A stretch of 44,307 nt of DNA, taken from Actinokineospora pegani. Its GTDB lineage: Bacteria; Actinomycetota; Actinomycetes; Mycobacteriales; Pseudonocardiaceae. This document shows positions 3,462-44,307 of this stretch, piece after piece (position 1 is the first letter of the stretch; each line of letters begins with the position of its first letter). The stretch spans positions 1 to 44,307 of the forward strand of contig NZ_WHOL01000115.1 in assembly GCF_009745975.1 (NCBI RefSeq). Reading direction: 5' to 3'. The notes beneath the pieces were generated by a model. That model ran no database searches. It was not told where the DNA came from and saw only the letters and a program-made list of their open reading frames with translations. Position numbers and translations under genes: made by a program.

Positions 3462-3474
3462 GCCCCCGGCGCCC

Positions 3475-4327: not shown

Positions 4328-4386
4328 ACCGCTGTCGGTGAACGAATCACCACTCCCGCGCGGCAACCACCCACGACCGGGCCGGC

Positions 4387-4392
4387 TAGAGT
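4387..4392 (+). promoter_or_regulatory. -10 element of a probable leaderless transcript (acetyltransferase)
   Basis: TAGAGT lies 6 nt before the GTG at 4399 and there is no Shine-Dalgarno sequence between them, so transcription would begin at or next to the start codon. Confidence 0.5.
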
Positions 4393-4398
4393 CCCCCC

Positions 4399-4890
4399 GT
4401 GATCATCCGACGCGAACGCCCCGGTGACGAGGCCGCCATCCACGCGGTCACCACCGCCGCCTTCGACCGCCCGGTCGAGGCGGACCTGATCGACCAGCTC
4501 CGCCTCGACCCCGGCTGGATCCCCGCCCTGTCCTTCGTGGCCACGGCGGGCACCAAGGTCATCGGCCACGTCGTCGCCACCCGCGGCGCCGTCGACGGCG
4601 TCCCCGCGCTGGGCCTCGGCCCGCTCAGCGTCCACCCCGACCACCAGCGCGCCCGGGTCGGCTCCGCCCTCGTGCGCACCCTCATCGGCGCCGCCAGCGC
4701 CTTGGACGAGCCACTCGTCGCCCTGCTCGGCGACCCCGAGTACTACCAGCGCTTCGGCTTCCGCCGCGGCGACGAGCTGGGCATCGCCCCGCCGGTCGCC
4801 GAGTGGCGGCCGCACTTCCAGGTCCACGCCCTCGCGGCGGAGGTACCCCGAGGGACCTTCACCTACGCGGAGCCCTTCACCCGGCTGTAG
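4399..4890 (+). CDS. GNAT family N-acetyltransferase, YhbS-like
   Basis: 163 residues from GTG 4399. Acetyl-CoA-dependent transferase fold: beta4/alpha3 pyrophosphate-binding motif LGPLSVHPDHQRARVGSALV (residues 75-94), and the YhbS-type C-terminal signature L-L-G-D-P-E-Y-Y-Q-R-F-G-F (near 112-124) followed by FQVHAL. E. coli YhbS shares this LGDP-x-YY-x-RFGF layout. The acceptor is unknown. Monocistronic; a leaderless start is likely (see the -10 just upstream). Confidence 0.88.
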   Translation: MIIRRERPGDEAAIHAVTTAAFDRPVEADLIDQLRLDPGWIPALSFVATAGTKVIGHVVATRGAVDGVPALGLGPLSVHPDHQRARVGSALVRTLIGAASALDEPLVALLGDPEYYQRFGFRRGDELGIAPPVAEWRPHFQVHALAAEVPRGTFTYAEPFTRL

Positions 4891-4964
4891 CCAGTCGCGC
4901 CCGGACCGGCCCCCGGATCGGGGAACCCGACTTTCCGCGCTTCCACGCCCGCTCGCGCGGCGGT

Positions 4965-4970
4965 TAGGGT
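4965..4970 (+). promoter_or_regulatory. -10 element of a probable leaderless transcript (acetoacetyl-CoA synthetase)
   Basis: TAGGGT ends 7 nt before the GTG at 4978, with no ribosome site between. Confidence 0.5.
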
Positions 4971-4977
4971 CGCTGGT

Positions 4978-18427: not shown

Positions 18428-19179
18428 GACAACCCTTCCCCACCGGTGCGCTGACCGCCCGCGACCTGCACGAAGCGGTGCTCCAGGCCCTCGGGGCCCG
18501 CGACATCGGCGAGCGTGCCCGCCGCGGCGACCTTGCCCCTGGCGATGATCGCGACGTGCGTGCACAGGTGCTCGACCAGCACCATCACGTGGCTGGAGAA
18601 CACCACGGAGCCGCCGCCCGCGACGAACGAGTCCAGGATGGCGCGGATGGTGGCCGCGGAGACCGGGTCGACGGCCTCGAACGGCTCGTCGAGCACCAGC
18701 AGCCGGGGCCCGTGCAGCAGCGCGGCGGCCAGGCCGATCTTCTTGCGCATGCCGGTGGAGTAGTCCACGACCAGGGTGCTCTCCGCGCCTTCGAGGTCCA
18801 GGACGGCCAGCAGCTCCTGGGCCCGGCTGGCGGTGGTGGCCTCGTCGAGGCCGCGCAGCAGGCCGAGGTAGGTCAGGAACTCGCGGCCGGTGAGCCGCTC
18901 GGGCATGGCCAGCCCGTCGGGCAGCAGGCCGACCAAACCCTTGGCGTGCAACGGGTCCGACCACACGTCGGCGCCGAAGACGCGGGAGCTGCCGCCGTCG
19001 GGGCGCAGCAGCCCGACGGCCATGAGGATGGAGGTGGTCTTGCCCGCGCCGTTGGGACCGACCAGGCCGTAGAAGGAGCCCGCGGGGACGGTGAGGTCGA
19101 CGTCGTCGACCGCCCGCTTGCCCCCGAAGACCTTCACCAGTCCGCTGAGCTCGAGGGCGGGTGTCGCCGCCGCGGTCAC
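18412..19179 (-). CDS. ABC transporter ATP-binding protein
   Basis: 255 residues from GTG 19179, with AGGCGGG about 8 nt upstream. Nucleotide-binding domain: Walker A G-P-N-G-A-G-K-T-T near 40, a signature variant Y-S-T-G-M-R-K-K in place of LSGGQ near 141, Walker B L-L-V-L-D-E-P near 160 and the H-loop S-S-H near 196. The STGMRKK variant is usual in ABC-2 exporters of the DrrA/CcmA group. First gene of a two-gene operon; divergent from the AlkZ-like gene, and the shared 221-nt region carries the TAGGGGG boxes. Confidence 0.9.
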   Translation of the reverse strand: MTAAATPALELSGLVKVFGGKRAVDDVDLTVPAGSFYGLVGPNGAGKTTSILMAVGLLRPDGGSSRVFGADVWSDPLHAKGLVGLLPDGLAMPERLTGREFLTYLGLLRGLDEATTASRAQELLAVLDLEGAESTLVVDYSTGMRKKIGLAAALLHGPRLLVLDEPFEAVDPVSAATIRAILDSFVAGGGSVVFSSHVMVLVEHLCTHVAIIARGKVAAAGTLADVAGPEGLEHRFVQVAGGQRTGGEGLSWLAS

Positions 19180-19351
19180 TTCCGACCCGCCTGGGGGTCA
19201 CGCATCGTCGAGGTTCCTTCCGTCCAGCGCGGCAGGCCGCGAGCCGGGACGGGGTGCGACGAGACGAGCACGCGCTCCCCGATCGGCGGCTCCATCAAGT
19301 GGTCAGAACCCTAGCCGACGGCGGTGCGACCGCTACGGCGCGTGGGCCGAA

Positions 19352-19381
19352 TAGGGGGTGGCGCGACGGCGTAGGGGGGTG
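19352..19381 (+). promoter_or_regulatory. Direct TAGGGGGTG boxes before the AlkZ-like gene
   Basis: TAGGGGGTG at 19352-19360 and TAGGGGGGTG at 19372-19381 begin exactly 20 nt apart, about two helical turns, on the same strand. The second ends 20 nt before ATG 19401, where it would overlap the -35 position. The same word lies upstream of the LAL regulator. Confidence 0.5.
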
Positions 19382-19388
19382 CTGCCGC

Positions 19389-19394
19389 GATACT
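19389..19394 (+). promoter_or_regulatory. Candidate leaderless -10 of the AlkZ-like gene
   Basis: GATACT ends 6 nt before ATG 19401. No ribosome site is present, so a leaderless transcript is likely. Confidence 0.35.
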
Positions 19395-19400
19395 CCGCGC

Positions 19401-20504
19401 ATGCGGCTGAGCCCTCGCAGGTTGAACAGGAGCACCCTCCACCGGCAGATGCTCTTGTCCCGGGAGCGCCACACAGCACCAGAGGCGGTGCGCCGACTGG
19501 TGGCGTTGCAGTCGCAGCAAGCGGGGTCCCCCTATTTGGCCCTGTGGAACCGGCTGGACGGCCTCAGCCCCGTCGACGTGGACGCGGCCTACCGCGACCG
19601 GTCGCTGGTGAAGGCGAGCCTCATTCGCGGAACGCTGCACACCGTCCACCCCGACGACTACGCCACCACCCGCTCCGCGCTGCACCCGTCGTCGCGCCCG
19701 CGCCTCGGTGACGACCGCTTCGCCGCGCCGCTCGACGAGGCCGACGCGCTGGCCACCGCCCTGGCCGCGCGGGCGGCGACGGCCAGCACCGGGGCGGAGC
19801 TGGACGCCTGGCTGGCCGAGCGGGGGTGGCCGGGCACGTGGTGGGGCATGCGCTGGTACGCCCCGCTGTGGCACGCCCCGACCGACGCGCCGTGGTCGTT
19901 CGCGGACCGGCCGCGCTTCGTGGCCGCTCCCCCGTCGCCGACGACGGACGAGGCGGCCGCCGCGGGGCTGGCCGAGCTGAGCCGCCGGTACCTGGCCGCG
20001 TTCGGGCCCGCGACGGTGGCCGACATCGCCCAGTTCCTCGGCGTGCGGCGCGGCCGGGTGCGGGCGGTGCTGGGGTCGCTGGAGCTGGTCGAGTTCGCCG
20101 CGGAGTCGGGTCCGCCGCTGCTGGACGTGCCGGACGGGCCGCTGCCGGACGAGGACACGCCCGCGCCGCCGCGGCTGCTGCCGATGTGGGACAACGTGCT
20201 GCTCGGCCACCAGGACCGCACGCGCGTGGTCCCGGCCGGATACCGCAGACACCTGACCCGGGTCAACGGGGACTTCCTGCCCGCGTTGCTGGTCGACGGG
20301 CAGGTGGCGGGCGTGTGGCGGCAGGTGGCCGGCGGGGTCGAGGCCACCGCGTTCGCCCCGCTGCCCGCGCACGCGTGGGAGGGGCTGGCGGAGGAGGCCG
20401 CGTCGTTGCTGGCGTTCGTGGGCGAGCGGCCGGACCCGGTGCCGCGCCGACACTTCCGGTGGTGGGACGACCTGCCCGCGGCGGAGGTGCGCGTGCTGGG
20501 CTGA
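19401..20504 (+). CDS. Winged-helix DNA-binding protein, HTH_42 / AlkZ-like DNA glycosylase family
   Basis: 367 residues from ATG 19401, the length of Streptomyces AlkZ. The HTH_42 (YcaQ/AlkZ) family consists of tandem winged helices around a catalytic Q-x-Q or Q-x-D pair. Here L-V-A-L-Q37-S-Q39-Q matches the QxQ (AlkZ-like) subclass, with the same spacing from the N-terminus as in AlkZ. Other family landmarks are LYLALWNRL-like PYLALWNRLDG, LVKASLIRGTLHTVHPDDY, and the C-terminal LLPMWDNVLLGHQDRTRVVP and NGDFLPALLVDGQVAGVW. Members remove bulky or cross-linked DNA adducts and often sit in clusters for DNA-alkylating products as self-resistance. Alternatively it is a general housekeeping paralogue; many actinomycetes carry several. 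Confidence 0.85.
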   Translation: MRLSPRRLNRSTLHRQMLLSRERHTAPEAVRRLVALQSQQAGSPYLALWNRLDGLSPVDVDAAYRDRSLVKASLIRGTLHTVHPDDYATTRSALHPSSRPRLGDDRFAAPLDEADALATALAARAATASTGAELDAWLAERGWPGTWWGMRWYAPLWHAPTDAPWSFADRPRFVAAPPSPTTDEAAAAGLAELSRRYLAAFGPATVADIAQFLGVRRGRVRAVLGSLELVEFAAESGPPLLDVPDGPLPDEDTPAPPRLLPMWDNVLLGHQDRTRVVPAGYRRHLTRVNGDFLPALLVDGQVAGVWRQVAGGVEATAFAPLPAHAWEGLAEEAASLLAFVGERPDPVPRRHFRWWDDLPAAEVRVLG

Positions 20505-20558
20505 CGCGTCCGTCCACATGCCATCGGCAACCGTGCGCGGGTCGTCGGCGGGTCTCGA

Positions 20559-20564
20559 TACAGT
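20559..20564 (+). promoter_or_regulatory. -10 element of a probable leaderless transcript (phosphotransferase)
   Basis: TACAGT ends 6 nt before GTG 20571; no ribosome site between. Confidence 0.5.
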
Positions 20565-20570
20565 GGCCCG

Positions 20571-21500
20571 GTGATCACTGAGGACGAGCAGGCGGCACGG
20601 TCGGAGCGGGCACTGCGGGCGGCGGTGGCCGCCGCGGGCGACCTGGGGCTCGACGCGGGCCAGGCGACGATCGTCTACGACGTGTTCTCGGTGGTCGTCG
20701 ACCTCGCGCCCGCGCCGGTGGTGGCCAGGGTGCCGGTGGTGACCCCGCCGGGGTCGGGGCCCGAGCAGCGGGAGCGCTTCCAGCGCACCGAGCTGGCGGT
20801 GGCGGCGTGGCTGCACGGGCGCGGGGAGCCCACGGTGCTGCCGAGCCCGCTGGTGCCCGCCGAGCCGGTGACCCGCGACGGGTTCGCCATGACGTTCTGG
20901 CAGCGCATCGACGACACCCTGCCCACCGACTACGACGTCGTCGGCCGGATGCCCGACGTGGCGCGCCTGCACGCCGTCCTGCGCGACTACCCGGGCGAGC
21001 TGCGCTTCTTCCCCGGCGTCGAGGGCTACATGGAAGCGTCGTTCGACAGCGTCGACGGCCGGGAGGACCTGCTGCCCGCCGCCGACCTGGCCCGCGCCAG
21101 GGCGGAGTGGGCCGCGCTGTCGCCGCTGCTGGCCAGCGAGGACGCGTTCGGCGAGGCCTTCCCCGGCGTGACGGTCCAGCCGACCCACGGCGACGCCCCG
21201 TTCTTCAACATCATCGAGACCGTCGACACCACCTACTACTCCGATTTCGAGCACGTGGGCGTGGCGCCGGTGGAGTGGGACCTGGCGCACACCGGGGCGG
21301 AGGCGCTCGCCGCCTACGCCGCCGCCGCCGGGCCGTTGGGGCTGCGGCCGGTGGAGCCGGTGGTGCTCGCCGCCATGGAGCGGGTGCGGGATCTGCAGAT
21401 GGTGGCGTGTTTGGCGATGGCACCCGCGTTGCCGTTGTTGGTTGACGGGCTCGCGGGGCAGGTCGATGCGTGGCGGGTTTCGGAGCCTTGGCGTCTTTGA
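20571..21500 (+). CDS. Phosphotransferase family protein (aminoglycoside phosphotransferase / choline-kinase fold)
   Basis: 309 residues from GTG 20571. Kinase-like fold with Brenner motif T-H-G-D-A-P-F-F-N near 204-212 (catalytic Asp, metal Asn) and a D-F-E metal motif in YSDFEHVGVAPVEWDLA near 224-240. The N-lobe is short: VVARVPVV would be the beta strand where the ATP-binding Lys normally lies, and a lysine is not evident there, so activity is uncertain. Some family members phosphorylate aminoglycosides, macrolides or homoserine. Its place beside the synthase invites a resistance role, but nothing in the sequence identifies the acceptor. It is convergent with the polyketide synthase, 103 nt away. 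Confidence 0.72.
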   Translation: MITEDEQAARSERALRAAVAAAGDLGLDAGQATIVYDVFSVVVDLAPAPVVARVPVVTPPGSGPEQRERFQRTELAVAAWLHGRGEPTVLPSPLVPAEPVTRDGFAMTFWQRIDDTLPTDYDVVGRMPDVARLHAVLRDYPGELRFFPGVEGYMEASFDSVDGREDLLPAADLARARAEWAALSPLLASEDAFGEAFPGVTVQPTHGDAPFFNIIETVDTTYYSDFEHVGVAPVEWDLAHTGAEALAAYAAAAGPLGLRPVEPVVLAAMERVRDLQMVACLAMAPALPLLVDGLAGQVDAWRVSEPWRL

Positions 21501-21603
21501 GGTGTACTGGGGCCTGCCTGTGGCTGGGTGGGGCCTGTCCCGTGGGGCCGCGGGGTGTGTGACTCCACGAGGCCCAGGGATACCGGCTTGTTGGGTGGGA
21601 GGG

Positions 21604-26757
<5,154 letters not shown>

Positions 26758-26769
26758 GTGGGTCTCCTC

Positions 26770-29700
26770 TTAAGACAAGCCCAGATCGCGGTCGACGAGG
26801 TCGAACAGCTCGTCGTCGGTCACGTCCTCGAGCGCGCTGGTGCGGTCGGTCGGGGTGGCGGCGCCGGGGAAGTTCTGGCCGCCGAGCTGGTGGAGCAGGG
26901 TCTGCAAGCGCAGGGTGGCGCGCACCCGGGTGGTGTCGTCCTCGGCGAGGCCGAGCAGCGAGGCGGTCAGCGGCTCCAGCGCGTCCAGCGCCGCGGCCAG
27001 GCCCGCGTCGGCGTCGTCGACCAGCTCGGCGAGCAGGAACTCGGCGAGCGCGGTCGGGGTCGGGTGGTCGAACACCAGCGACGCCGAGAGCGTGAGCCCG
27101 GTCGCGGCGGTGAGGCCGTTGCGCAGCTCGACGGCGGTCAGCGAGTCGAAGCCCAGCTCCTTGAACGCCTGGGTGGGCTCGACCGCCTCCGGGCCGGGGT
27201 GGCCCAGGACGGCGGCGGTGTGCGCGCGGACGATGCCCAGGACCGTGCGCTGCCGGTCGCCCGCCGGGGCGGCGCGCAGCTTCTCGCGCAGGTCGTCGGC
27301 GGCGTCGGTCGGCTCCGGCTCGGCGGTGGCGAACACGTCGGCCAGCAGGGCGTTGGGGCGCATGGCGGTCAGGCCGGTGCCCAGCAGCGACCAGTCCACG
27401 TCGGCGACGGCGACCGCCCGGTCCCGGCGGCCGACGGCGGCGGCCAGGGCGGTGACGGCGAGGTCGGGGTCCATGGCGGTCAGGCCGCGGCGGCGCAGGG
27501 CCGCGTCGGTCTCGTCGGTGAGCATGCCGCCCCCGGCCCACGGGCCCCAGGCCAGCGCGGTGCCCGCCTTCCCGGCGGCGCGGCGGGCGTGCACGAGGGC
27601 GTCGAGGTAGGCGTTCGCGGCGGCGTACCCGGCCTGCCCGCCGCTACCCCACACCCCGGCGATGGAGGAGAAGACCACGAAGGCGTCCAGCTCCGCGCCG
27701 TCCCTGGTCAGCTCGTCGAGGTTGCGGGCCCCGGCGACCTTGCCGCCCAGGGTGGCGGCCAGGTCGTCCCCGTCGAGGGTGGCGAGCGGGCCGTCGACGG
27801 CGACCCCGGCCGCGTGCACGACGGCGGTGAGGTCGTCGACGCGGTCGAGCACGGCCTTGAGCGCGTCGCGGTCGGCGGCGTCGCAGGCCACGACCTCGGC
27901 GCCCAACTCCTCGGCCAGGGCGGCGGCGCCGGGGGTGTCGGGGCCGCGGCGGCTGGTGAGCACGACGCGCGCCCCGTGGCCGACCGCCCAGCGGGCGACG
28001 CGCGCGCCCAGACCGCCGGTCCCGCCGGTGATCAGGACGGTGCCGCGCGGGGTCCAGTCCTCGCCCGGTCCGGCCGGGGCGGGCCCGAGCCGGGCGGCGA
28101 AGACGCCCGAGGGGCGGATGGCGACCTGGTCCTCGGCGCCGGCCAGGACGGCGGCGAAGCGCTCCCGGGCGCGGCTGTCCCACTCCCCCGACACGTCGAC
28201 GAGCCCGCCCCAGTCCGCGGGGTGCTCCAGCGCGGCGACGCGGCCGAGCCCCCAGGCGGCCGCCTGCTCGGGGCTGGTGACCGGTTCGGTCCCGGCTGGG
28301 ACGGCACCGCTGGTGACGGCCCAGAGCGGCCCGGAGTCCGCCGCGAGCAGGGCCGCGGCGCCGAGCAGGGCCTCGGTCAGGTCGTCGTGCGCGGCGAGCA
28401 GGGAGACCACGCCGTCGGTGCCTGCCAGGGCCAGGTCGGCGCCGGGGGTCCAGGCGTGGACCTCGACATCGGCGCCCGCGAGGATGAGCGCCTCGGCGCA
28501 GCCGCGCGCGGTCGGGTGCTCGGGGTCGGGGGCGACCAGGGCCCAGCGGCCGTCGAGGCGGGCGGCGGGCAGGTCGGTGACCGGCCGCCAGCGGGTCTCG
28601 TACCGCCAGGAGTCCGTCGTGGAGCGCCCGAGCCGCTTGCGCAGCGCGGGGACGACGGCGGTGAGGGTGTCCTCGGGGACGTCGAGGTCGGTGGCCAGGG
28701 TGGCCAGGTCGTTGTCGCGGACGGCCTTCCAGAACGCGTCGTCGACCGGGTCGGCGCCCGGGGCGGCGGCGGGCGGCTCGATCCAGAACCGCTGGCGCTG
28801 GAACGGGTAGGTGGGCAGGTCGACGCGGCGGACCTCCAGCCCGGCGAACACCGCCGCCCAGTCGACGTCGGCGCCCTGGGCGTGCAGCGTCGCCAGGGCG
28901 GTGAGCGCGGTGGCGACCTCGGGCCGGTCGCGGCGCAGCGCGGGCACGCAGGCCTGGCCGCTCTCGCCGAGCACCGGGGTCAGGGCGGCGTCGGGGCCCA
29001 GCTCGACCCAGCGGGCCGCGCCCCGCTCGCGCAGGGCGGCCACCCCGTCGGCGAACCGGACGGTCCCGCGCACGTGCCGCACCCAGTACTCCGGGTCGGT
29101 GACGTCCCCGGCCATGACCGGGATCGTCGGCTCGTGGAACTCCGCCGAGGTGACGACGGCGCGGAACTCGTCCAGCATCGGGTCCATCAGCCCGGAGTGG
29201 AACGCGTGGGACACGCTGAGCCGCTTGGTCTTGCCGAATCCGGCGGCGAGGGCCAGGACCTCCGACTCGACGCCGGAGACCACCACGGCCTCCGGCCCGT
29301 TCACCGCCGCGATCGACACCCCGGGGGTCAGCTCGATCTCACCCTCGGCGGCCTTGATCGCGACCATCGCCCCGCCCTCGGGCAGGGCGCCCATCAGACG
29401 ACCACGCGCCTCCACGACCTTGCACGCGTCCGCCAGCGACCACACACCAGCCAAGTGCGCGGCGGCCAACTCGCCGATCGAGTGCCCGATCAGGACATCG
29501 GGCTTGACCCCCCACGACTCGAACAGCCGGAACAACGCCACCTCGAACGCGAACAGCCCGGCCTGGGCCACCTCGGTCCGGTGCACGTCCTCCGTGGCGA
29601 TCCGCTCCCGGACGCCGTCGAAGTGCGACAGCGCCTCGTCGAAGGCGGCGGCGAAGACGGGGAAGCGGGCGGCGAGCTCGCGGCCCATCCCGACCCGCTG

Positions 29701-32700
29701 CGAGCCCTGGCCGGAGAAGACGAACGCGGTGCGGCCCTCGATCGCGCGCCCGGTGACGACGCCCGTGTCGGTCCCGTCCGCCAGCGCGGTGAGGCCCCGG
29801 CGGAACTCGATGCCGTCGCGGCCCAGGACGGCGGCGCGGTGCGGGTGCGCGGCCCGGGTGGAGACCAGCGACCAGGCGACGTCGACCGGGTCCGCGCCCT
29901 CGTCGACCAGGCGCAGCAGGGCGGCGGCCTGCTCGCGCAGGGCGCGCGGGGTCTTGCCGGAGAGCACCCAGGGCAGCGGCTCCGGTTCGCGGACGAGCGC
30001 GGCCGGGGCGGGCTGGGGCTCGGCCTGCTCCAGGATGACGTGGGCGTTGGTGCCGGAGATGCCGAAGGAGGACACACCGGCGCGGCGCGGGCGGTCGACG
30101 GCGGGCCAGTCGCGGCGCTCGGTCAGCAGCTCGACCGCGCCGGCCGACCAGTCCACAGTGGATGACGGCTGGCCGACGTGCAGCGTCTTGGGCAGCACGC
30201 CGTGCCGCAGGGCGAGCACCATCTTGATGACCCCGGCGACACCCGCGGCGGCCTGGGTGTGGCCGATGTTGGACTTGATCGCGCCCAGCCACAGCGGCTC
30301 GGACCGGTCCTGGCCGTAGGTGGCCAGCAGCGCCTGGGCCTCGATCGGGTCGCCCAGCGACGTCCCGGTGCCGTGCGCCTCCACAGCGTCCACATCGGAC
30401 GTGGTGAGGCCGGCGTCGGCGAGGGCCTGGCGGATGACGCGCTGCTGCGCGGGGCCGTTGGGGGCGGTGAGGCCGTTGGAGGCGCCGTCCTGGTTGACGG
30501 CCGAGCCCGCGAGCACGGCCAGGACCGGGTGGCCGTTGCGCCGGGCGTCGGAGAGGCGTTCGAGGACGAGCACGCCCGCGCCCTCGCCCCAGCCGGTGCC
30601 GTCGGCGCCCTCGGCGAAGGCCTTGCAGCGGCCGTCCGCGCCGAGGCCGTTCTGCTGGGAGAAGCCGACGAAGATGCCAGGCGTGGCCATGACGGTGGCG
30701 CCGCCGGTCAGCGCCAGCGAGCACTCCCCCGACCGCAGCGCCTGCGCGGCCAGGTGCAGGGCGACCAGGGAGGCCGAGCACGCGGTGTCGACGGAGACGG
30801 CCGGGCCCTCCAGGCCCAGGGCGTAGGAGACGCGGCCGGACAGGACGCTGGCGGCGGTGGAGGTGATCAGGTAGCCCTCGGCGTCCTGCGGGGCGGCGGC
30901 GACCAGCGAGCCGTAGTCCATGTAGTTGGTGCCGGTGTAGACGCCGGTCCGGGTGCCGCGCAGCGCCGACGGGTCGATGCCCGCGCGCTCCACCGCCTCC
31001 CAGGACAGCTCCAGCAGCAGCCGCTGCTGCGGGTCCATGGCCAGCGCCTCGCGCGGGGAGATGCCGAAGAACGCGGCGTCGAACTTGTCGGCGTCGTCGA
31101 GGAAGCCGCCGACCGGGGCGAAGTCCGGATCGGCAGGCACGGCCCAGCCCCGGTCGTCGGGGAAGCCGCGCACGACGTCGCGGCCGTCGACGAGCAGGTC
31201 CCACAGGCGCTCGGGGGTGTCCGCGCCGGGGAAGCGGCAGGACATGGCGACGACGGCGATCGGGTCCTCGGTGTCGCGGGTGGTGGTCTCGACGGCGCGG
31301 TCCTGCGCGCCGATCAGGAACGCGGCCAGCTCCGCGGCGGTCGGGTAGTCGAAGACGACGGTGGCGGGCAGCGGACGGCCCAGCGCGGTGGCGAGCCGGT
31401 TGCGCAGCTCCACGGCGGTCAGCGAGTCGAACCCCAGGTCCCGGAAGGGCTTGCCCGCCGAGATGGCGGCGGCGTCGCTGTGCCCGAGGACGGCGGCGGC
31501 CTGCGCGCGGACCAGGTCCACGGCGGTGGCGGGGTCGAGGGTCGACGCGGTGGACTTCACCGTCGCGGCGGGGCGGTGCCCGGCGAGGCCCGCGAGCAGC
31601 GGCGGCAGCGCGTCGGCGGCGCGCAGGGCGGCCAGGTCGAGGGCGAGCGGGAGGACGTGCGCCGCGCCCACTGTCCCGATGGCGCTATCGAGCAGACGGG
31701 TGGCGGCGGTGGCGGTGAGGCCGCGCATCCCGCCGCGGGCCATGCGGGCGCGGTCGGTGGCGGTGAGGCCGCCGGTCATGGCGCTGTCGTCGGCCCACAG
31801 GCCCCAGGCGAGGCTGGTCGCGGCGCGGCCGCGGGCGCGCAGGTGGGCGGCGAGGCCGTCGAGGTAGGCGTTGGCGGCGGCGTAGTTGGCCTGGCCCGCC
31901 GCGCCGAGGGTGGCCGCGGCGGAGGAGAAGAACAGGAAGGCGGCCTCGCCCGCGAGGTCGACGAGGTGGCGCGCGGCGTCGGTCTTGACGGCCATGACCG
32001 CCCGCAGCCGCTGCGGGGTCAGGGCGGTGACCAGGCCGTCGTCGACGACCCCGGCGGCGTGCACGACCACGCGGACGTCCCGGTCGCCGATGGCGGCGGC
32101 GAGCGAGTCGCGGTCGGCCACGTCGCAGGCGGCGACCTCGACCGACGCCCCGGCCCCGGTCAGCTCGGCGACCAGGTCGGCCGCGCCGGGCGAGTCCGGT
32201 CCGGAGCGGCCGAGCAGCAGCAGGTCGCGGGCCCCGCGGGCGACGGCGTGCCGGGCGACCACGGCGCCCGCCATGCCCAGGCCACCGGTGATCAGGACCG
32301 TGCCGTCCCAGGTCGTTCCGGTGCCGGGCGTGCCGCGGACCAGGGTGGGGACGAGGACCTGCCCGTCGCGCACGACCTGGCGGGGGTGCGCGAGGTCGAG
32401 CGGCGCCGGGGTGCCGTCGGTGTCGACCAGGACGATCCGGCCGGGGTTCTCGGCCTGCGCGGCGGCGACCAGGCCGCACACCGACGCCTGCGCGACGCCG
32501 TCGACCCGGTCGCCGTCGAGGGCGGCGACGGCGTCGCGGGTGCGGATGACGAGGACGGGCGCGTCCGGGGCGTGCTCCTGGATGCGGGCGAGGGCGGCGG
32601 TGGCGGCGTCGACCGGGTCGGTGGCGGCGGGGACGTCCCAGACGGTGTGCGGGGCGTCGGTCGCGGTGGCGGGGACGGGCTTCCAGCGCAGGGTGTGGTT

Positions 32701-35700
32701 GTCGCCGGGGTCCTGGGCGGCGGGCAGGTCGGGGGTGCCGTGGCGGACGCCCTGGACGTGGGCGACGGGGGCGCCCTCGTCGTCGGTGAGCCAGAACTGC
32801 GTGCCGTCGGTGCGGACGTGGACGCGGGTCGCGCCGGTGGCGTGGATGGTCACCCCGGTCCAGTCGAGCGGGGTGGCCCCCACCGCCGCTTCCAGGAGGG
32901 CGGGGTGCAGGGCGAACGCCCCGTCCAGCCCCGCGGGCAGCACGACCTCCACAGCCTCGCCGACGGGCGACCAGACGGGGGTGTCGGCGGTGAGCGAGCC
33001 CTCGGCGTGCCGGGTCCAGGCGGTCTCGCCGTCGGGTCGCGAGTGGACGGTGACGGTCGCGCCCTCGACGACGACCTGGACGGCCGCGCCGGACTCGGGG
33101 AGCACGAGCGGGGTGGTCAGGGTCAGGGTCGCCAGCGTGGGCAGGCCGACGTGGTCGCCCGCGTGGATGGCGAGTTCGACGAGCGCGGCGGTGGGCACCA
33201 TCGGCTCGAACCAGTCCGCGCGGGACAGGCGGCCGGTCAGGACGACGCCGCTGCCGGAGACCGGGGTGAGGACCGCGCCGAGCAGCGGGTGCGTGCCCGG
33301 GGTCAGGCCCCAGTCCGACGGGTCGCCGGAGCCGCCGGTGGCGCGCAGCCAGAAGCGGTCGCGCTGGAACGGGTAGGTGGGCAGGTCGACGACCCGGCCG
33401 CCCGCCAGCCACGCCGACCAGTCGACGCCGACGCCGTGGCAGAACGCCTCGCCCAGCGACAGCGCGACCCGGTCCAGGCCGCCCTGGTCGCGGCGCAGCG
33501 TGCCGACCGCGCGCCCGGCCATCCCCGGCGCCAGCACCGGGTGCGGGCTGACCTCGACGAACACCGCCTGCGGCCAGGCGGCGACGGCGTCGTCGAACAG
33601 GACGGTCTGGCGCAGGCTGCGGTACCAGTAGGCCGCGTCCATCGTCGTGGTGTCGAGGACGGCTCCGGTCACCGTGGACACCAGCGGCACCCGGCCCGCG
33701 ACCGGCGAGACCGGGGCGAGCACCCGCAGCAGGTCGGCTTCGAGCGCCTCGACCTGCGCGGAGTGCGACGCGTAGTCCACCGGCACGCGCCGGACGCGCA
33801 CCTCGTCGGCCGCGCAGGCGGCGATGACCGCGTCCAGGCCCGGGTTGTCGCCGGAGACGACCACCGACGACGGCCCGTTCACGGCGGCGACCCCGACACC
33901 GGGGTGCCCGGCGATGCGCTCGCGCACCCGCTCGACCGGCAGTGCGATCGACACCATGCCACCGTGCCCGGCCAGCGATTCCGCGATCACCTTGGACCTC
34001 AACGCGACGACCCTGGCACCGTCCTCGAGCGACAGAGCGCCCGCGACGACGGCGGCCGCGATCTCGCCCTGCGAGTGCCCGATCACCGCGGCGGGCTTGA
34101 CGCCGTTGGCCTCCCACACGGCGGCGAGCGACACCATGACCGCCCACAGCGCGGGCTGCACCACATCGACCCGCTCCAACACCACCGCGTCGTCCAGCAC
34201 CGACACCAGGTCCCAGTCGACGAAAGCCCGCAACGCCTCGGCGCACCGCGCCATCCGCGCCGCGAACACCGGGGACGACGTCAGCAGCTCCCGGCCCATG
34301 CCGACCCACTGCGCCCCTTGCCCCGGGAACACGAACACGGCCTTGGCCACCGACTCGGCGATCCCGCTGACCCCCGACACCAGCGGCGAGCCCCCGGCCA
34401 GCGCCCGCAGCGCCTCGGCGTCGGTCACCACCGCGCGGTGCTCGAACAGCACCCGCGTCGTCACCAGTGAGAAACCGAGGTCGAGCGGGTGCGCGTTGAC
34501 GTCGAGCAGCCGCGCGGCCTGGGCCCGCAGCGCCGCCTCGGTCTTGCCGCTGAGCACGAACGGCACCACGGCCGGGGCGTCGGGCCCCTCCACGGACTCG
34601 GTCTCCGGGGCCGATTCGAGGATGACGTGGGCGTTGGTGCCGGAGATGCCGAAGGCGGAGACACCCGCGCGGCGCGGCCGGTCGGTCGACGGCCAGGGCC
34701 GGGCCTCGTCGAGCAGCGACACCGCGCCGCCGGACCAGTCCACCTGGGACGTCGGGGCGTCGACGTGCAGGGTCTTGGGCAGGAGGCCCTTCTGCAGGGC
34801 GAGCACCATCTTGAGCACGCCCGCGACGCCAGCGGCGGCCTGGGTGTGGCCGATGTTCGACTTGACCGACCCCAGCCACAGCGGCGTCTCGCGGTCCTGG
34901 CCGTAGGTGGCCAGCAGCGCCTGGGCCTCGATCGGGTCGCCCAGGGTGGTCCCGGTGCCGTGCGCCTCAACGACATCGATGTCGGCGGCGGAGACGCGCG
35001 CGTTGGCCAGCGCGGCGCGGATGACCCGCTGCTGCGACGGCCCGTTCGGCGCGGTCAGGCCGTTGGACGCGCCGTCCTGGTTGACCGCCGAGCCCTTGAT
35101 GACCGCGAGGACCCGGCGTCCGTTGCGCTGGGCGTCCGACAGCTTCTCCAGCACCAGCACGCCCGCGCCGTCGGAGAACCCGGCGCCGTCGGCGGCGTCG
35201 GCGAAGGACTTGCAGCGGCCGTCGCCTGCCACCCCGCCCTGGGCGGCCATCTCGCCGAACAGGGTGGGCGTCGACATGATCGACACCCCGCCCGCCAGCG
35301 CCATCGAGGACTCGCCCGCGCGCAGCGACTGGCAGGCCAGGTGCAGCGCGACCAGCGAGGCCGAGCAGGCGGTGTCGACGGTGACCGAGGGGCCCTCGAA
35401 CCCGAGCGCGTAGGAGACCCGGCCGGACAGGACGGCCGCGGAGGTGCCGGTGGCGAGGTAGCCCTCGATCTCCGGCGGCACGGAGGTCAGCGCGGCGGTG
35501 TAGTCCTGCCCGTTGGTCCCGGCGAACACCCCGACCCTGCTCCCGGCCAGCGAGTCGGGGGCGATGCCCGCGCTCTCCACGGCCTCCCAGCTCGTCTCCA
35601 GCAGGACGCGCTGCTGCGGGTCCATCGCGGCGGCCTCGCGCGGGGAGATGCCGAAGAACCCCGCGTCGAAGTCGGCGGCGGAGTCGACGAACCCGCCGAC

Positions 35701-35955
35701 GAGCGCCGCCCGCGCCTGCGGCGACAGCGTCCAGCCCCGGTCGTCGGGGACCGGACCCATGCCGTCGCGCCCGCCCGCGAGCAGGTCCCACAGGTCGTCG
35801 GTGGACTCGACGCCGCCGGGGAAGCGGCACGACATGCCGACGACGGCGATCGGGTCGAGCAGCACCGACTCGGCCTCGGCCAGCCGCTTGCGCGTGTCGC
35901 GCAGGTCGGCGGTGACCTTCTTGAGGAAGTAGCGGAGCTTCTCGTCGTCGCTCAC
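26770..35955 (-). CDS. Type I modular polyketide synthase, two modules: KS-AT-DH(inactive)-KR-ACP, KS-AT-KR-ACP
   Basis: 3061 residues from GTG 35955, with AGAGGA 9 nt upstream and 41 nt after the previous synthase stop. N-terminal docking helix 4-30. First module: KS 34-450 (Cys197, His332, His370); AT 541-845 with G-H-S628-Q-G and Y728-A-S-H (methylmalonyl); dead DH 889-1075; KR 1218-1390 active (T-G-G-L-G-M-A-G, Y1358, N1362) with V-D-D, B-type; ACP Ser1511. Second module: KS 1563-1976 (Cys1726, His1861, His1899); AT 2076-2366 with G-H-S2159-I-G and H2250-A-F-H (malonyl); KR 2638-2812 with W2769, Y2777 and N2781 and no LDD, A-type; ACP Ser2938. C-terminal docking region 2980-3061. It adds a propionate-derived and an acetate-derived unit, each with a beta-hydroxyl of opposite predicted configuration. 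Confidence 0.93.
32731..33291 (-). other. Inactive, shortened dehydratase remnant
   Basis: The domain opens normally ([13 protein letters not shown]) but where H-P-W-L-x-x-H-x-V-x-G-x-x-x-x-P should stand there is [12 protein letters not shown]; the catalytic His and about 10 residues are gone. The second catalytic residue is H-P-A-L-L-E instead of HPALLD. The helical YGP region is also missing. The hydroxyl made by the adjacent KR should be kept. Confidence 0.8.
33605..33645 (-). repeat. 41-nt perfect repeat in two methylmalonyl AT domains (copy 1)
   Basis: Identical to 38335-38375, at the equivalent place (A-Y-W-Y-R-S-L-R-Q) of the two YASH acyltransferases in neighbouring synthase genes. 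Reflects recent AT duplication or gene conversion. Confidence 0.8.
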
Positions 35956-35996: not shown

Positions 35997-38900
35997 TCAG
36001 GAGATCCCGAACTCCTCGCCGAGCAGGTCGAAGATCTCGTCGTCGGAGGCGGACTCGATCTCCCGCTCCCCCTGGGCTTGCTGCCCGGCCCCGCCCTGCC
36101 AGGCGCGCACCAGCTCGGTCAGGCGGGCGGTGATGCCGACCCGGTCGCGCTCGTCGACGTCGAGTCCGCCCAGCGCGGCGGCGACCCGGTCCAGCTCGGC
36201 GTAGACGTCGGTCGCGGTGGCGGGCGCCTGGCCGCCCGCGAGCTGGGGCAGCAGGTGCTCGGCCAGCGAGGCCGCCGTGGGGTAGTCGAAGACGAGCGTG
36301 GCGGGCAGGGTCAGGCCGGTGGCGCGGGCCAGCGCGTTGCGCAGCTGCACCGCGGTCACCGAGTCGAACCCGAGGTCCTTGAACGCCTTGCGCTCCTCCA
36401 CGTCGTCGCCGGAGGCGTGGCCCAGGACGGCGGCGACCTGCGCGCGGACCACGCCGAGCACCGCGTCCACCTGCTCCGCGGCGGGCAGCGCCGCCAGCCG
36501 GGCGGGCAGGCCCTCGGTGGCGGGGCCGTCCTCGACGGCCGGGGCCAGCGCGCGGACCTCGGCCAGGTCGCCGAGGAACGGGCTGGGCCGGGACGCGGTG
36601 TAGGCGACCAGGAAGCGCGGCCAGTCGATGTCGGCGACCACGGTCGCGGGGTCGCCGCGCCGGATCACCTCGTGCAGCGACCGCAGCGCCTTGTCCGGGG
36701 CCATCTCCGGCACGCCGTGGCGGCGGGCGATCTCGCCGATGCCGGAGGCGGCCATGCCGCCCTCGGCCCACGGCCCCCACGCCACGGCCGTGGCCGGGAG
36801 CCCGAGGTGGCGGCGGTGCTGGGCGAAGGCGTCGAGGAAGGCGTTGCCGGGGGCGTAGTTGCCCTGCCCCGACGCGCCCCACACCCCGGCCATGGAGGAG
36901 AACAGCGCGAACGCCTCCAGCGGCAGGTCGCGGGTCAGCTCGTGCAGCGCCCAGGCCGAGGAGACCTTGGCGCGCACGACCCGCTCGACCTGGACCGGGG
37001 TGAGCGAGGGGACCACGCCGTCGTCGAGCACGGCGGCGGTGTGGAACACCGACCGCACGGGGTGCTCGTCCGGCACGCCCGCGAGCGCGGCGGCCAGGGC
37101 GTCGCGGTCGGTGATGTCGCAGGCCAGGAGCTGGACGCGGGCCCCGGTCGCCTCGATGTCGGCCACCAACTCGTCCGCGCCCACGGCGGCCGGGCCGCGG
37201 CGGCTGAGCAGCAGCAGCGAGGGCGCGCCGAGCCGGGCGGCCCAGCGGGCGACCTTCGCGCCCAGCGCCCCGGTGCCGCCGGTGACGACGACGGTGCCGG
37301 TCGGGGTCCAGTCGGTGGTGGGCTTGGCGGTGCTGGGTTTCGTGACGGTGCGGGCGAGGCGGCGGACCAGCGCTCCCCCGCCGCGGATGGCCACCTGGTC
37401 CTCGTCGCCGTGGGCGATGACGGCGGCGGCGCGGTCCCAGGCGGTGGTGTCGTGGGCGGCGGGCAGGTCGACCAAGCCGCCCCAGCGCTCGGGTGTCTCC
37501 AGGGCGACGATGCGGCCGAAGCCCCAGACCATGGCCTGGTCGGGGTCGAGCATGGGGTCGTCGTCCCCGGTCGAGACCGCGCCCCGGCTCAGTACCCAGA
37601 CGGGCGCGGGCAGGTCCGCGTCGTCGAGGGCCTGCACCAGGGTCAGCGTCGGCACCAGCCGGCCGGGGCTGTCGGCCGCGTCGACCGAGAGCAGGGAGAC
37701 CACCCCGGCGAACGGCCCCGCGGGCAGTTCGGCGGCGAGCGCGGCGCGGTCCTGGCCGTCGACCTCGACGACCACGGGCTCGCCGCCGTGGCGGGTGAGC
37801 ATGGCGGTCGCGGCGTCGGTCAGCGGGTTGCCGGGCGCGGTGGCGACCAGCCAGCGGCCGGCCAGGACGCCCGCGGGCAGCTCGGGCCGGGGCCGCCAGA
37901 CGACCTCGTAGCGCCAGTCGTCGAGCTCGGCGGTGGCGGCGGAGTCCGCGCGCCAGGCGTCGAGGGCGGGCAGCACCGCGCTGAGCGGGGCGTCGGCGTC
38001 GAGGCCGAGCGCGCCGGAGCGGACCAGGTCCCAGAACTCGTCGTCGCGGCTGGCCTGCTGGACCTCGGCGGGCGGGTCCCACCAGAAGCGCTCGCGCTGG
38101 AAGGCGTAGGTGGGCAGGTCGACCCACGCCCCGGGGCCGGTGACGGCGGCCCAGTCGACGGCGACACCGCTGGCGAACGCCTCGCCGAGGGCGAGCGTGA
38201 AGCGGCGCGGGCCGCCCTGGTCGCGGCGCAGGGTGGCGACGGTGACGCCCTCGATCGCGCCGGAGAGCACGGGGTGCGGGCTGACCTCGATGAACACGCC
38301 GGTGCGGGTGGTGACGGCCTGCTCGAACAGCACCGTCTGGCGCAGGCTGCGGTACCAGTAGGCCGCGTCCATCGTGGTGGTGTCCAGTGGCTCGCCGGTG
38401 ACGGTGGAGACCAGCGGGACGTCGGCGCGGCGCGGGGTGACCGGGGCGAGGGCGTCGAGGACGCCCGCCTCGATCGCCTCGACGTGCCTGGAGTGCGACG
38501 CGTAGTCCACCGGGATGCGCTTGCCCGTCTCCGCCAGCAGCTCCTCGAGCGCGTCGGCGTCGCCGGAGACCACGATCGAGGACGGGCCGTTGATCGCCGC
38601 GACCCCGATCCGGCCGTCGAACCCGGCGATGCGGGCCTCGACCTCGGCCAGCGGCAGCGGAACGGACACCATGCCGCCGAGCCCGGAGAGCCGCTCCCCG
38701 ATCAGCTTGCTGCGCAGGGCGACCACCCGCGCGCCGTCCTCAAGGGACAGCGCGCCCGCGACGACGGCGGCGGCGATCTCGCCCTGCGAGTGCCCGATGA
38801 CAGCCGTGGGCTCGACCCCGGCCGAGCGCCACAGCGCGGCCAGCGACACCATCACCGCCCAGGACACCGGCTGCACGACGTCGACGCGGGCCAGCGCGGC

Positions 38901-41900
38901 CTCGTCACCCAGCACGGAGAGCAGGTCCCAGTCGACAAACGGCGACAACGCCTCGGCGCACTCGCGCATCCGCGCGGCGAACACCGGCGAGGACCCGACC
39001 AGCTCCGCGCCCATGCCGACCCACTGCGCGCCCTGGCCGGGGAAGACGAACACCGGGTCGCCGGACTCGGCGCGGCCGGTCACGACCGAGGGCGACGGCG
39101 CGTCCGAGGCCACCGCCGACACCCCGGCCAGCAGCTCGTCCCAGTCCGCGCCGACGACGACGGCCCGGTGCTCGAACGGCGTGCGGGTGCGGGCCAGCGC
39201 CGACGCGACGGCGGTCGGGCTGCCCCCGGCGTCGAGCGCGGACCGCAGGCGGGCGGCCTGCTCGCGCAGCGCGGCGGCGGACTTGCCCGCCAGCACCCAC
39301 GGCACGAGCGCCTTCTCCTGCTGCGCCACGGGTTCGGGGGCGGGCGGGGCCTCCAGGACCACGTGCGCGTTGGTGCCGGAGACACCGAACGACGACACAC
39401 CGGCGCGGCGCGGGCGGTCGGCGGGGGGCCACTCGCGGGGCTCGGTCAGCAGTTCGATGCCGTCGGTCCAGTCCACCTTGGTGGAGGGCCGGTCGACGTG
39501 CAGGGTCTGGGGCAGCACGCCGTGCCGCATGGCCAGGATCATCTTGATCACCCCGGCGGCGCCCGCGGCGGCCTGGGTGTGGCCGATGTTGGACTTGATC
39601 GAGCCCAGCAGCAGCGGGGTCGCGCGGTCGCGCCCATAGGTGGCCAGCAGCGCTTCCGCCTCGATCGGATCGCCCAGGGTGGTGCCGGTGCCGTGCGCCT
39701 CGACAGCGTCCACATCGGACGCGGTGAGGCCCGCGGCGGCCAGCGCCCGGGTGATCACCCGCTGCTGGGCGGGGCCGTTGGGGGCGGTGAGGCCGTTGGA
39801 GGCGCCGTCGGAGTTGACCGCGCTGCCCCGCACCACGGCGAGGACCCGGTGGCCGTTGCGCACGGCGTCGGACTGGCGCTCGAGCACCAGCACGCCCACG
39901 CCCTCGGAGAACCCGGTGCCGTCGGCGGCGTCGGCGAAGGACTTGCAGCGGCCGTCGGCCGAGGTCGCGCCCTGGCTGCCGAACTCGGTGAACAGCTCCG
40001 GCGTCGACATGACCGCCACCCCGCCCGCCAGCGCCAGCCCGCACTCGCCCGCGCGCAGCGCCTGCGCGGCCAGGTGCAGGGCCACCAATGACGACGAGCA
40101 CGCGGTGTCGATCGTGACGGCGGGCCCCTCCAGGCCCAGGGTGTAGGCGACGCGGCCGGACAGGACGCTGCCGGTCGCCCCGGTGCCGACGTACCCGGCC
40201 AGCTCCTCGGGGACCGAGCGCGGCACGTTGGTGTAGTCCTGCCCGCCGGTCCCGGCGAACACACCGGTCTGGCTGCCGCGCAGGGACGCGGGGTCGATGC
40301 CCGCCCGCTCCACGGCCTCCCACACCGTCTCCAGCAGCAGGCGCTGCTGCGGGTCCATCGACACGGCCTCGCGCGGGCTGATGCCGAAGAACGCGGCGTC
40401 GAACCGGGCGGCGTCGTGCAGGAACCCGCCCGCGCCGAAAGCGGCCCCGACCGCGTCGGGCCAGCCCCGGTCGGTGGGGAAGGGGCCCATCGCGTCGGTC
40501 CCGGTGGACAGCAGCTCCCACAGCCGCTCCGGGGTGGTCACGCCACCGGGCAGCTTGCAGGCCATCCCGACGACCACCACGGGGTCGGCCGGGTCCACGG
40601 CGGCGACCTCGGTCTTGGCCGCGGCGGGCAGGGAGTCGGCGAGCTTGTCGTCGAGGAAACCGGCCAGCGCGGCGGAGGTCGGGTAGTCGAACACCACCGG
40701 CGCGGGCAGCTTGACCCCGGTGGCGGCCTTGAGCCGGTTGCGCAACTGCACCGCCGACAGCGAGTCGATGCCCAGCTCGCGGAACGGCCGGGTCGGCGCG
40801 ATGGCGTCGGCGGCGGCGTGCCCGAGCACGGCGGCGGCGGCGGAGCGGACGAGGTCGAGCAGGGCCCGGGACCGCTCGGCGGCCCCCATCCCGGCGAAGG
40901 AGGTGACGCCCGCCCGCGCCGTGGCCCGGCGGGCGGGGGCGGGCACCAAGGCGCGGAACAGGGCGGGCAGTTCGGCGGCGCGGGCGCGCAGGGCGGGCAG
41001 CGACAGCCGCAGCGGCAGCACTGAGGTGGCGCCCGCGGCCTGGTCGAACAGGGCCAGCGCGGCTTCGGTGGCCAGCGCGGCGACGCCGGTGCGGGCGATC
41101 CGGTCCAGGTCGGCGCTGTCGAGGTGGCCGGTCATGCCCGAGCTGCGCGCCCACAGGCCCCAGGCCAGCGCCGTGCCGGGCAGCCCCTGGTCGCGGCGGT
41201 GCTCGGCGAGCCGGTCGAGGACGGCGTTGGCGGCGGCGTAGTTGGCCTGGCCGGGCGCGCCCAGGGCGGCCGCGCCCGAGGAGAACAGGACGAACGCGGT
41301 GACCGGGTGGTCCGCGGTCAGCTCGTGCAGGGCCAGGGCGGCGTCGACCTTGGGCCGCAGCGCGGTGTCGAGCCGCTCGGCGGTCATGGACTCCACGACG
41401 CCGTCGGCCAGCACACCCGCGGCGTGCACGACGCCGGTGACGGTGTGCTCGGCGAGCAAGGCGGCCAGCGCGTCGCGGTCGGCGGCGTCGCAGGCGGCCA
41501 CGTGCGCGGTCGCGCCGTGCGCGGCGAGCCGGTCGACCAGCTCGGCGGCCCCGGCCGCCGCCGGGCCACTGCGGCTGGTCAGCACCAGGGTGCGCACGCC
41601 GTGCACGGCCGCGAGGTGCTCGGCGACGGCCGAGCCGAGCGCGCCGGTGCCACCGGTGACCAGCACCGTGTGGCCGAAGTCCCAGCGCTCGCCGGTGGCC
41701 GGGGCGGGGGCGAGGCGGGGGGCCAGGGTCTTGCCGTCGCGCACGGCCACCTGCGGCTCGCCGGTGGCCAGGGCGGCGGCGGCGTGCTCCGCGGTGGGCG
41801 GGACGTCGGTGTCGAGCAGGGTGAAGCGGCCCGGGTGCTCGGACTGGGCGGAGCGGACCAGTCCCCAGGCGCCCGCGGCGGCGAGGTCGGCGGGCGTGCC

Positions 41901-44307
41901 CGGCGCCGCGCCCCGGGTGGCCAGGACGAGGTGCGCGTCCGCCTTCGCCGGGTCGGCCAGCCAGTCGCGCACGCGTTCCAGCGCCCGGTGCGCGTCGGCG
42001 ACCGGGACGACCTCGAACGGCGGGGCCTCGACCGCGGCGGCGACCTCGACCCAGTCGAGGCGGTAGAGGGCGCCGCCATCCGAGGTCGGACCGGCGAGCT
42101 GGTCGGCGGCGACGGGCCGCGACGCGATGCCGCCGAGCAGCGCCACCGGGGCGCCGGTCCCGTCGGCCAGCTCGACGCGCTGCCCGCCGTCGACCGGGGT
42201 GACGCGGACGCGCAGGGCATCGGCGCCGACAGCGGCCACGGTCACGTCGGTGAAGGAGAACGGCATCCCGGGGCCGTCCTGCTCGCCCGCCAGGCCGCCG
42301 ACGACGATGGCGTGCAGGGCGGCGTCGGCCAGCGCGGGGTGCAGGGCGAAGGACTCGGCGGCGGGGCGCTGGGACTCGTCGAGGGCGACCTCGGCGAACA
42401 CGTCCCCGCCGCGCCGCCAGACCGCGCGCAGCCCCTGGAAGGCCGGCCCGTACTCCAACCCGGCCTCGGCCATGCCCTGGTAGGACACGGCCACGGGCTC
42501 GGCCCCGGCGGGCGGCCACTGGGCCAGGTCGAAGTCCAGCGCGGTGGTCGCGGCCGCGACCGCGCCGGTGGCGTGCCGGGTCCACGGGTCGGCGTCGTCG
42601 GCGCGGGAGTGGACGGCGACCGGGCGGCGGCCGTCGGTGTCGGGCGCGCCGAGCACGACCTGCACGGCGGTGGACCCGGTGAGCACGAGCGGGGCCTGGA
42701 GGGTCAGCTCCTCCAGGGTGTCGAGTCCGGCGCGGGCGGCGGCGTGCAGGGCGAGTTCGACGAAGGCGGTGCCGGGCAGGACGACCGTGCCGAGCACGGC
42801 GTGGTCGGCCAGCCACGGGTGGGTGCGGGTGGACAGGCGGCCGGTCAGCAGGACCGAGTCGTCCTCGGCCAGGGTGAGCGCGGCGCCGAGCAGCGGGTGC
42901 CCGGCTGCGGTGAGGCCGAGGCCGCCCGCGTCCCCGGCCAGGACCGGGGCGTCGGGCCAGAACCGCTCGTGGTCGAAGGCGTAGGTGGGCAGCTCGACCC
43001 GGTCGCCGGTCACGATCGAGGGCCACGCGATGTCGGCACCCGCCCCGTGCAGGCGGCCCGCGGCGGTGAGGACGGCCGCGACCTCCGGGACGCGGGCGGG
43101 CAGCAGGTCGACGTGCCAGGCCTCGGTCACCGGGGCGAGCAGCGGCGAGGTCGGCCCGACCACGACGACCTTCGCCGCGTCCCCCAGGTCCGGGGCCGGG
43201 GCGGGGACCTCGTCCGCCAAGGCCCGGGCGGCTTCCTCCAGGGTGCAGGAGCCTGCGGCGTGAGCGGCGGCGATGGCGCCCACGCCGGTCCCGACGACGT
43301 TGTCGGCGGTCAGACCCCAGGTCTCCAAGAGGCGGAACAACGCGACCTCGACCGCGAACAGCCCGGCGCGGGCGTAGGCGGGCCGGTCGAGCAGGTTGGC
43401 CTCCGGCGTGCCCTCCTCGGCGAAGACGATGGCGGCCAGCGGCTTGTCCAGGTGGTCCGCGAGCGCCTCGGCGGCCCGGTCGAACGCGGCGGCGAACACG
43501 GGGAAGCGGGCGTGCAGGTCGCGGCCCATCCCGGCGCGGCGGGCGCCCTCGCCGGGGAAGAACGCGGTGAGCGGGCCGGCGACGGCGGTCTCCGGCTCGG
43601 GGACGGCGTCGAGGGCGGCGAGCAGGTCGGCCCGCTCCCCCACGACCGTGACCCGGTGCTCCCAGCGGGGGCGGGTGGTCAGCAGCGACCACGCCACGTC
43701 GGCCGGGCGCACGGACTCGTCGGCCAGCAGCGCGCGCAGGCGGGCGGCCTGGGCGCGCACGGCGGTCGGGGTGCGGGCGGTGATCACCAGCGGCACCGGG
43801 CCCGCGGTGGCCTCGGCGGCGGTGGAGCTGTCCAAGGCGGGCGCGGCCTCGATGATGGCGTGCGCGTTGGTGCCGGAGACGCCGAACGACGACACGGCGG
43901 CGCGGCGCGGGCGGTCGACGGCGGGCCAGTCGCGGCGCTCGCTGAGCAGGGCGACCGCGCCGGACTCCCAGTCCACCTGGGTGCTGGGCTCGTCGACGTG
44001 CAGGGTCGGCGGGAGGACGCCGTGGCGCAGCGCCTGGACCATCTTGATGATCCCGCCGACGCCCGCGGCGGCCTGGGTGTGGCCGACGTTGGACTTGAGC
44101 GAGCCCAGCCACAGCGGCTCGGTCCGGTCCTGCCCGTAGGTGGCCAGCAGCGCCTGGGCCTCGATCGGGTCGCCCAGGGTGGTCCCGGTGCCGTGCCCCT
44201 CGACCGCGTCGACGTCCAGTGTGGACAGACCAGCGTCGGCGAGGGCGGCGCGGATGACCCGCTGCTGCGACGGCCCGTTCGGCGCGGTCAGGCCGTTGGA
44301 CGCGCCG
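35997..44307 (-). CDS. Type I modular polyketide synthase (5' partial): KS-AT(inactive)-DH-KR-ACP, KS-AT-KR-ACP
   Basis: Open to the right window edge; about 2769 C-terminal residues are visible. Numbering below starts at the Met of 44042. The first module keeps the C-terminal quarter of its KS (E-G-H-G-T-G, S-N-V-G-H), then an AT that lacks its nucleophile (157-340), an intact DH 381-640 (His414 in [10 protein letters not shown], Asp573), KR 790-968 with L-A-D, Y935 and N939 (B-type), and ACP Ser1094. Second module: KS 1152-1566 (Cys1315, His1450, His1488), AT 1664-1965 with G-H-S1752-Q-G and Y1847-A-S-H (methylmalonyl), KR 2248-2430 active (LDD), ACP Ser2561. The C-terminal docking region 2610-2681 ends in acidic D-D-E-I-F-D-L-L, matching the docking helix of the next protein. 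Confidence 0.92.
38335..38375 (-). repeat. 41-nt perfect repeat in two methylmalonyl AT domains (copy 2)
   Basis: Partner of 33605-33645; the flanking AT sequence, including [20 protein letters not shown], is also nearly the same in both proteins. Confidence 0.8.
42123..42902 (-). other. Intact dehydratase domain next to the dead AT
   Basis: H-P-W-L-A-D-H414-A-V-L-G-T-V-V-L-P, the Y-G-P motif near 531 and H-P-A-L-A-D573 are all present, so dehydration is expected. With a B-type KR this normally gives a trans double bond. Confidence 0.8.
43023..43574 (-). other. Truncated, nucleophile-less acyltransferase (AT0)
   Basis: About 185 residues instead of about 300. The opening F-P-G-Q-G is F-P-G-E-G, the nucleophile elbow G-H-S-x-G is G251-T-G-V-G255 (43292-43278), and the segment from the active-site Arg through the HAFH/YASH motif is deleted. 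The flanks ([33 protein letters not shown], and the post-[10 protein letters not shown]) are normal and in frame. It cannot load an extender by the known mechanism. Confidence 0.88.

Follow-up and report, generated by a model that had tools for sequence, protein, structure and literature searches.

Polyketide synthase locus

The window analysed is the entire contig C115 (44,307 bp) of the Actinokineospora pegani genome, which has a size of 6.44 Mb, is assembled in 128 contigs and is 99.36% complete. Three proteins of a modular polyketide synthase (PKS) are encoded on its minus strand, with no stop inside any of their frames. The reported module, which is the first of protein P0001, has the architecture KS-ATdel-DH-KR-ACP, and the features of the locus are as follows:

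35997-44306 (-), P0001, open frame with one end cut by the contig edge; the reported module is its first
43992..44306 (-), C-terminal 105 residues of the KS (PF02801 15-118 at 43995-44303); the N-terminal part lies past the contig edge
43563..43991 (-), KS-AT linker, the stretch between the KS and AT matches
43215..43562 (-), AT remnant limited to the N-terminal part, with Gly in place of the catalytic Ser (PF00698 4-114/319, E 1.7e-21, at 43559-43215; alignment)
42957..43214 (-), junction: AT C-terminal leftover and post-AT linker with its 12-residue motif (alignment)
42087..42899 (-), DH with an intact ten-residue motif (PF21089 and PF14765)
41127..41672 (-), KR (PF08659, PF00106)
40647..40856 (-), ACP with the GIDSL motif (PF00550)
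35997..40586 (-), following module of P0001, KS-AT(YASH)-KR-ACP, and the C-terminal end of the protein
26770..35955 (-), second PKS protein (P0002; upper end about 35955, start codon picked by eye), KS-AT(YASH)-(degraded DH)-KR-ACP and KS-AT(HAFH)-KR-ACP
21604..26757 (-), last PKS protein, KS-AT-(no KR match)-ACP-TE

The PF00698 matches in the window number five, all within the three PKS proteins, and comprise the remnant and four full ATs, which are present in all four of the other window modules. No discrete AT gene was found by this search in the window, nor was one found in C123 or C127, two contigs whose ends fit the window edge; the cluster extends past the contigs read.

Some other domains of the locus are unusual. 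The DH of the first P0002 module (window about 33040-33291 (-) and downstream) gave a match to PKS_DH_N (PF21089) only and none to PS-DH; the HxxxGxxxxP motif is absent by eye, and the domain appears shortened and dead. The last module (window 21607-26757 (-)) has no KR Pfam match, although a TGS-like KR remnant can be seen by eye, and its AT carries AGHS in place of YASH/HAFH.

The acyltransferase remnant

Integrated ATs contain motifs with the catalytic Ser and Arg, and specificity motifs of which HAFH denotes malonyl and YASH methylmalonyl. The two specificity motifs are likewise stated in the available text of PMC9673147.

What is left of the AT in the reported module is the dead relic of a malonyl-type domain. 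The remnant corresponds to residues 249-364 of P0001. Aligned with eight HAFH-type ATs from this genome, it has FFPGEG in place of FPGQG/FSGQG, AR in place of TQ and GTGVGA in place of GHSxGE. The segment bearing the conserved Arg (ARGxLM), the AVNGP..VVSG strand, HAFHS and YWVRHVR is absent, and the 12-residue motif of the post-AT linker is retained. The distance from GTNAH at the end of the KS to the post-AT end is 306 aa, versus 410-467 aa in 26 other modules of the same genome, and therefore roughly 104-161 residues are missing. The scan behind this comparison covered 17 contigs of the genome and gave 37 GTNAH-like hits, namely this module, the 26 with both motifs, and 10 lacking the second motif within the stretch examined, some of which sit at contig edges. 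The earlier note put the loss at about 115 residues.

Domain models were built from modules of this genome and sister genomes, and a column counted as conserved when the other sequences agreed in it at 95% or more. Eight of the 20 conserved columns in the kept AT stretch are broken; the 237 other ATs all break fewer there (mean 0.28). The mean identity of the remnant is 0.470 to HAFH ATs (n 139), 0.393 to YASH ATs (n 70) and 0.379 to others (n 28). The Pfam match, the spacing, the alignment and the broken columns bear out the dead, partly deleted AT described earlier from the letters of the window, and the greater nearness to HAFH than to YASH ATs agrees with the malonyl type then assigned to it.

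A chance or sequencing artefact is ruled out by the open frame, the eight conserved-column changes beside the deletion and the lack of a long repeat at the site in the contigs fetched. In the fetched PKS contigs of the genome, which are a part of the 128, no exact repeat of window 42881-43880 exceeds 27 bp (the one at 43341); for starts at 43030-43337 the longest repeat listed is 19 bp. Repeat-driven misassembly of the AT deletion is unlikely.

The linker, remnant and post-AT linker, from window 43892, were modelled with AlphaFold2 using a 30-row alignment of the window and GTDB loci. The mean pLDDT of the model is 81.9; ten-residue blocks average 44-59 within residues 1-30 and 80-97 within 31-220, the pLDDT drops below 50 at residues 229-259 (the junction stretch, within 42957..43214), and the C-terminal helix 270-283 is confident. 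Foldseek matched the model over about 200 columns to KS-AT didomains, for example those of DEBS module 5 (2hg4) and GfsA (8in9). The AT relic may serve as a structural spacer.

Maintenance of the remaining domains

No conserved column is broken in the visible KS part (0/33), DH (0/11), KR (0/23) or ACP (0/6) of the module, the tests for DH and ACP being weak because they have few conserved columns. This agrees with the intact DH, KR and ACP of the earlier description. The open frame reported there was also found; its normal flanks hold with the reservation that the KS is not visible whole from the window, since the contig ends inside it. Because the AT columns are broken while those of the KS, DH, KR and ACP are intact, the AT is dead and the rest apparently maintained; constraint has been lost from the AT, with no visible loss in the other domains.

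These data bear on the possibility that the assembly line is being lost and produces nothing. Such decay, to which the degraded DH in the second protein and the missing KR match in the last module would fit, is very improbable: the three PKS frames are free of stops, the conserved columns of the four other domains of the module are unbroken, and third-position GC is 0.966-1.0 across the six segments measured.

The upstream neighbour

The part of P0001 beyond the window was sought by comparing 34 ends from 18 contigs. At its right edge, C115 has an exact 52-bp overlap with the left edge of C123, which alone among the 34 ends fits exactly, and C127 fits the same edge over 53 bp with one mismatch. 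Exact overlaps of 30-63 bp also occur between other contig ends within this conserved KS region, and therefore repeats alone can produce such overlaps. Placing C123 upstream gives a complete in-frame KS that contains DTACSSS, with 1 of 65 conserved columns broken in its N-terminal half, and a preceding module, KS-AT(HAFH)-DH-KR-ACP, on the same protein. The contig-end overlap thus suggests that a module with a malonyl AT (HAFH) lies directly upstream on the same protein.

Relatives of the module

An ortholog of the module was found neither in 16 genomes of the genus, where the matches listed besides the window are 34-57% identical, nor in 390 genomes of the family, where matches are 48-59% identical among the best 6 or 7 candidates scored per genome. 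No listed genus or family match covered the remnant as an ortholog would. A search of GTDB contigs gave 25 loci with best-segment identities of 35-70%; the 70% locus (L079) extends over 1,099 bp, as a full AT would. A homologous cluster was also sought through the TE region in the 390 genomes, with a best identity of 50% among the best 6 or 7 candidates per genome. Weak relatives could escape the family and class searches, in which this number of candidates was scored. Literature searches, none of them made by organism name, found no paper on this cluster. At a separate locus, L056 of Streptomyces sp. NRRL S-37 (about 5689-6828), an AT is short at its C-terminal end (374 aa spacing) and has kept GHSVG.

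An AT-less module in six sister species

A total of 225 complete KS-to-ACP modules were surveyed in chosen PKS regions of this genome and ten sister genomes. GHSxG is absent in eight of them: the reported module, two full-length ATs with GSSQG and GHDTG, and five orthologous modules of the structure KS-linker-KR-ACP without any AT hit, which belong to a line different from that of the window. The GSSQG and GHDTG ATs lie on contigs C64 and C17 of this genome (G000), in minus-strand frames 17872-29397 and 3-5171 of the fetched stretches.

A sixth carrier, G009, was added by the family search, so that the AT-less module occurs in 6 of 390 genomes, all of this genus, among the best 6 or 7 candidates per genome. 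The carriers are G003, G005, G008, G009, G011 and G014 (L190-L195). In all six cases the preceding module on the same protein is KS-AT(HAFH)-KR-ACP. One more module follows the AT-less one in five of the six frames, with a TE-like tail in four (G003, G005, G011 and G014); the stretch fetched for G008 stops inside the KS following the AT-less module. Beyond the genus, the search for the AT-less junction gave 15 matches in 8 of 394 class genomes (best 6 or 7 candidates per genome), all of them partial (each beginning at model position 98 or beyond) and none contiguous.

For five species (ten pairs), dN/dS values of the AT-less module are 0.057 for KS, 0.126 for KR and 0.059 for ACP; the neighbouring modules of the same species have 0.057-0.070, 0.156-0.166 and 0.115-0.162, respectively, all values being rough owing to many synonymous differences (mean pS 0.38-0.61). 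In these five species purifying selection thus acts on the AT-less module as on its neighbours, and keeps it in a cis-AT line of the genus. Three ATs were compared as well, and dN/dS is lowest in the one immediately preceding the AT-less module (0.122 vs 0.205 and 0.18), which is a weak hint of double duty. The AT-less module of the six sister species is a more instructive discovery than the window module itself.

Comparison with known systems

The closest precedent is the aureothin/neoaureothin PKS, a cis-AT line with one undersized, inactive AT, in which the intact AT of the preceding module is reused. In the available text of PMC6916388, AT4 of aureothin is smaller than typical ATs and marked as inactive, and AT3 of the penultimate module can take over its function; iterative use of the penultimate AT is described for aureothin and neoaureothin (PMC6916388, PMC9899208, in the parts available). 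The window likewise contains an undersized AT without catalytic residues in an otherwise complete module, and an intact AT in the preceding module would be provided by the HAFH-type AT of C123 if its overlap reflects the true order, C127 being the one-mismatch alternative. The defective module is the last in aureothin/neoaureothin, whereas here it is internal and possesses DH and KR; the likeness is drawn without the AurC sequence. The most fitting view of the module is as another aureothin-type case, this time internal, in which AT sharing would apply as well. Such feeding by another loader has already been described for aureothin and would occur in a more extreme, conserved form in the six sister species.

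Other systems are less similar. Module 12 of the irumamycin PKS has its catalytic Ser replaced by Gly and low similarity to AT motifs; unlike the reported module it is the last, the available text mentions no deletion, and repeated use of module 11 is the explanation given there (PMC11672594). A truncated AT is described in the working pepstatin cluster, in the available text of PMC12081711; the likeness is by description, and PepC differs in being a discrete single-module PKS beside NRPS genes. Modules of trans-AT PKSs resemble the reported one in that remains of the AT linker, but no functional AT, come after the KS. However, integrated ATs are not missing throughout the present line, whose other modules seen in the window carry full ATs, and the window has no discrete AT gene. 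For algal PKSs, the available part of PMC4661987 describes a proposal that integrated ATs were displaced.

Loading of the ACP

The candidate loaders of the ACP are the upstream malonyl AT, the downstream methylmalonyl AT, the FabD-like AT of C17, the AT of C107 and the probable FabD of C75. The last three came from the search for a discrete AT gene outside the window that had been proposed as a check, which thus found such genes elsewhere in the genome. The discrete AT of C107 is a 406-aa protein, and the probable FabD of C75 adjoins FabH-like and ACP genes. The ACP of the module has a similarity of 0.632 to the upstream ACP and 0.567 to the downstream ACP, and no single donor is indicated.

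Loading by a free-standing enzyme, be it the FabD-like AT of C17, the discrete AT of C107 or housekeeping FabD, is improbable. The FabD-like AT at C17:57571-58416 (G000) scores 254-255 bits with TIGR00128 (cut-off 260.9), and C17 also carries low-scoring KS domains; short frames (277-653 aa) with FabD-like hits, at 225-290 bits, are listed for four of the six AT-less carriers (G008, G009, G011 and G014), and a DEBS module with AT6 nulled was restored by the Streptomyces coelicolor malonyl transacylase, as described in the available text of PMC6164871. Yet C17 and C107 are other contigs with different gene neighbourhoods, and G003 and G005 have one FabD-sized hit each (179 bits) among the matches listed, which go down to about 174 bits. 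With its FabD-like AT and low-scoring KS domains, C17 of G000 is possibly a trans-AT PKS region in its own right.

The other mechanism offered at the outset was passage of the chain from the KS to the ACP without extension, the KR and DH being idle or acting on the unit of the preceding module, which may stutter. The dead AT accords with this explanation, as do two published cases: in irumamycin the dead AT of M12 is explained by stuttering of M11 (PMC11672594, available text), and module skipping is documented in the aureothin/luteoreticulin line, there independently of the AT4 defect (PMC6916388, available text). It would nevertheless make the KR and DH superfluous, the putative upstream module having its own, although the KR, DH and ACP columns are unbroken, and in the AT-less modules of the sister species purifying selection still acts on KR and ACP. 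Passage without extension therefore stands as a rival and is rather unlikely.

Loading by a neighbouring AT, the first of the two mechanisms, is favoured because of the aureothin precedent and the conservation of an AT-less module in six sister species. On these grounds we infer, with slightly more confidence than doubt, that the module still extends the chain and is loaded by a neighbouring malonyl AT in an aureothin-like manner. Its ACP would receive malonyl from another AT, most probably from the intact malonyl AT in the immediately preceding module of this polypeptide; one AT would then serve two successive ACPs, and the KS, KR, DH and ACP of the module would function normally.

A broader proposal, advanced tentatively and with doubt prevailing, is that, repeatedly in cis-AT lines of the genus, a module placed after a malonyl-AT module within one protein has lost its AT through an in-frame deletion that spared the linkers, and that the upstream AT feeds both ACPs. 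If this is true, an intermediate between cis-AT and trans-AT systems would be visible, fixed and selected in one line of six species, with an earlier, half-deleted stage in the window. Sharing of one AT by two modules would break the one-module-one-AT rule used for predicting products from genomes. The half-deleted AT and the AT-less sister module are natural pairs for testing how an AT reaches a second ACP, a question that bears on the engineering of PKSs and on the origin of trans-AT systems.
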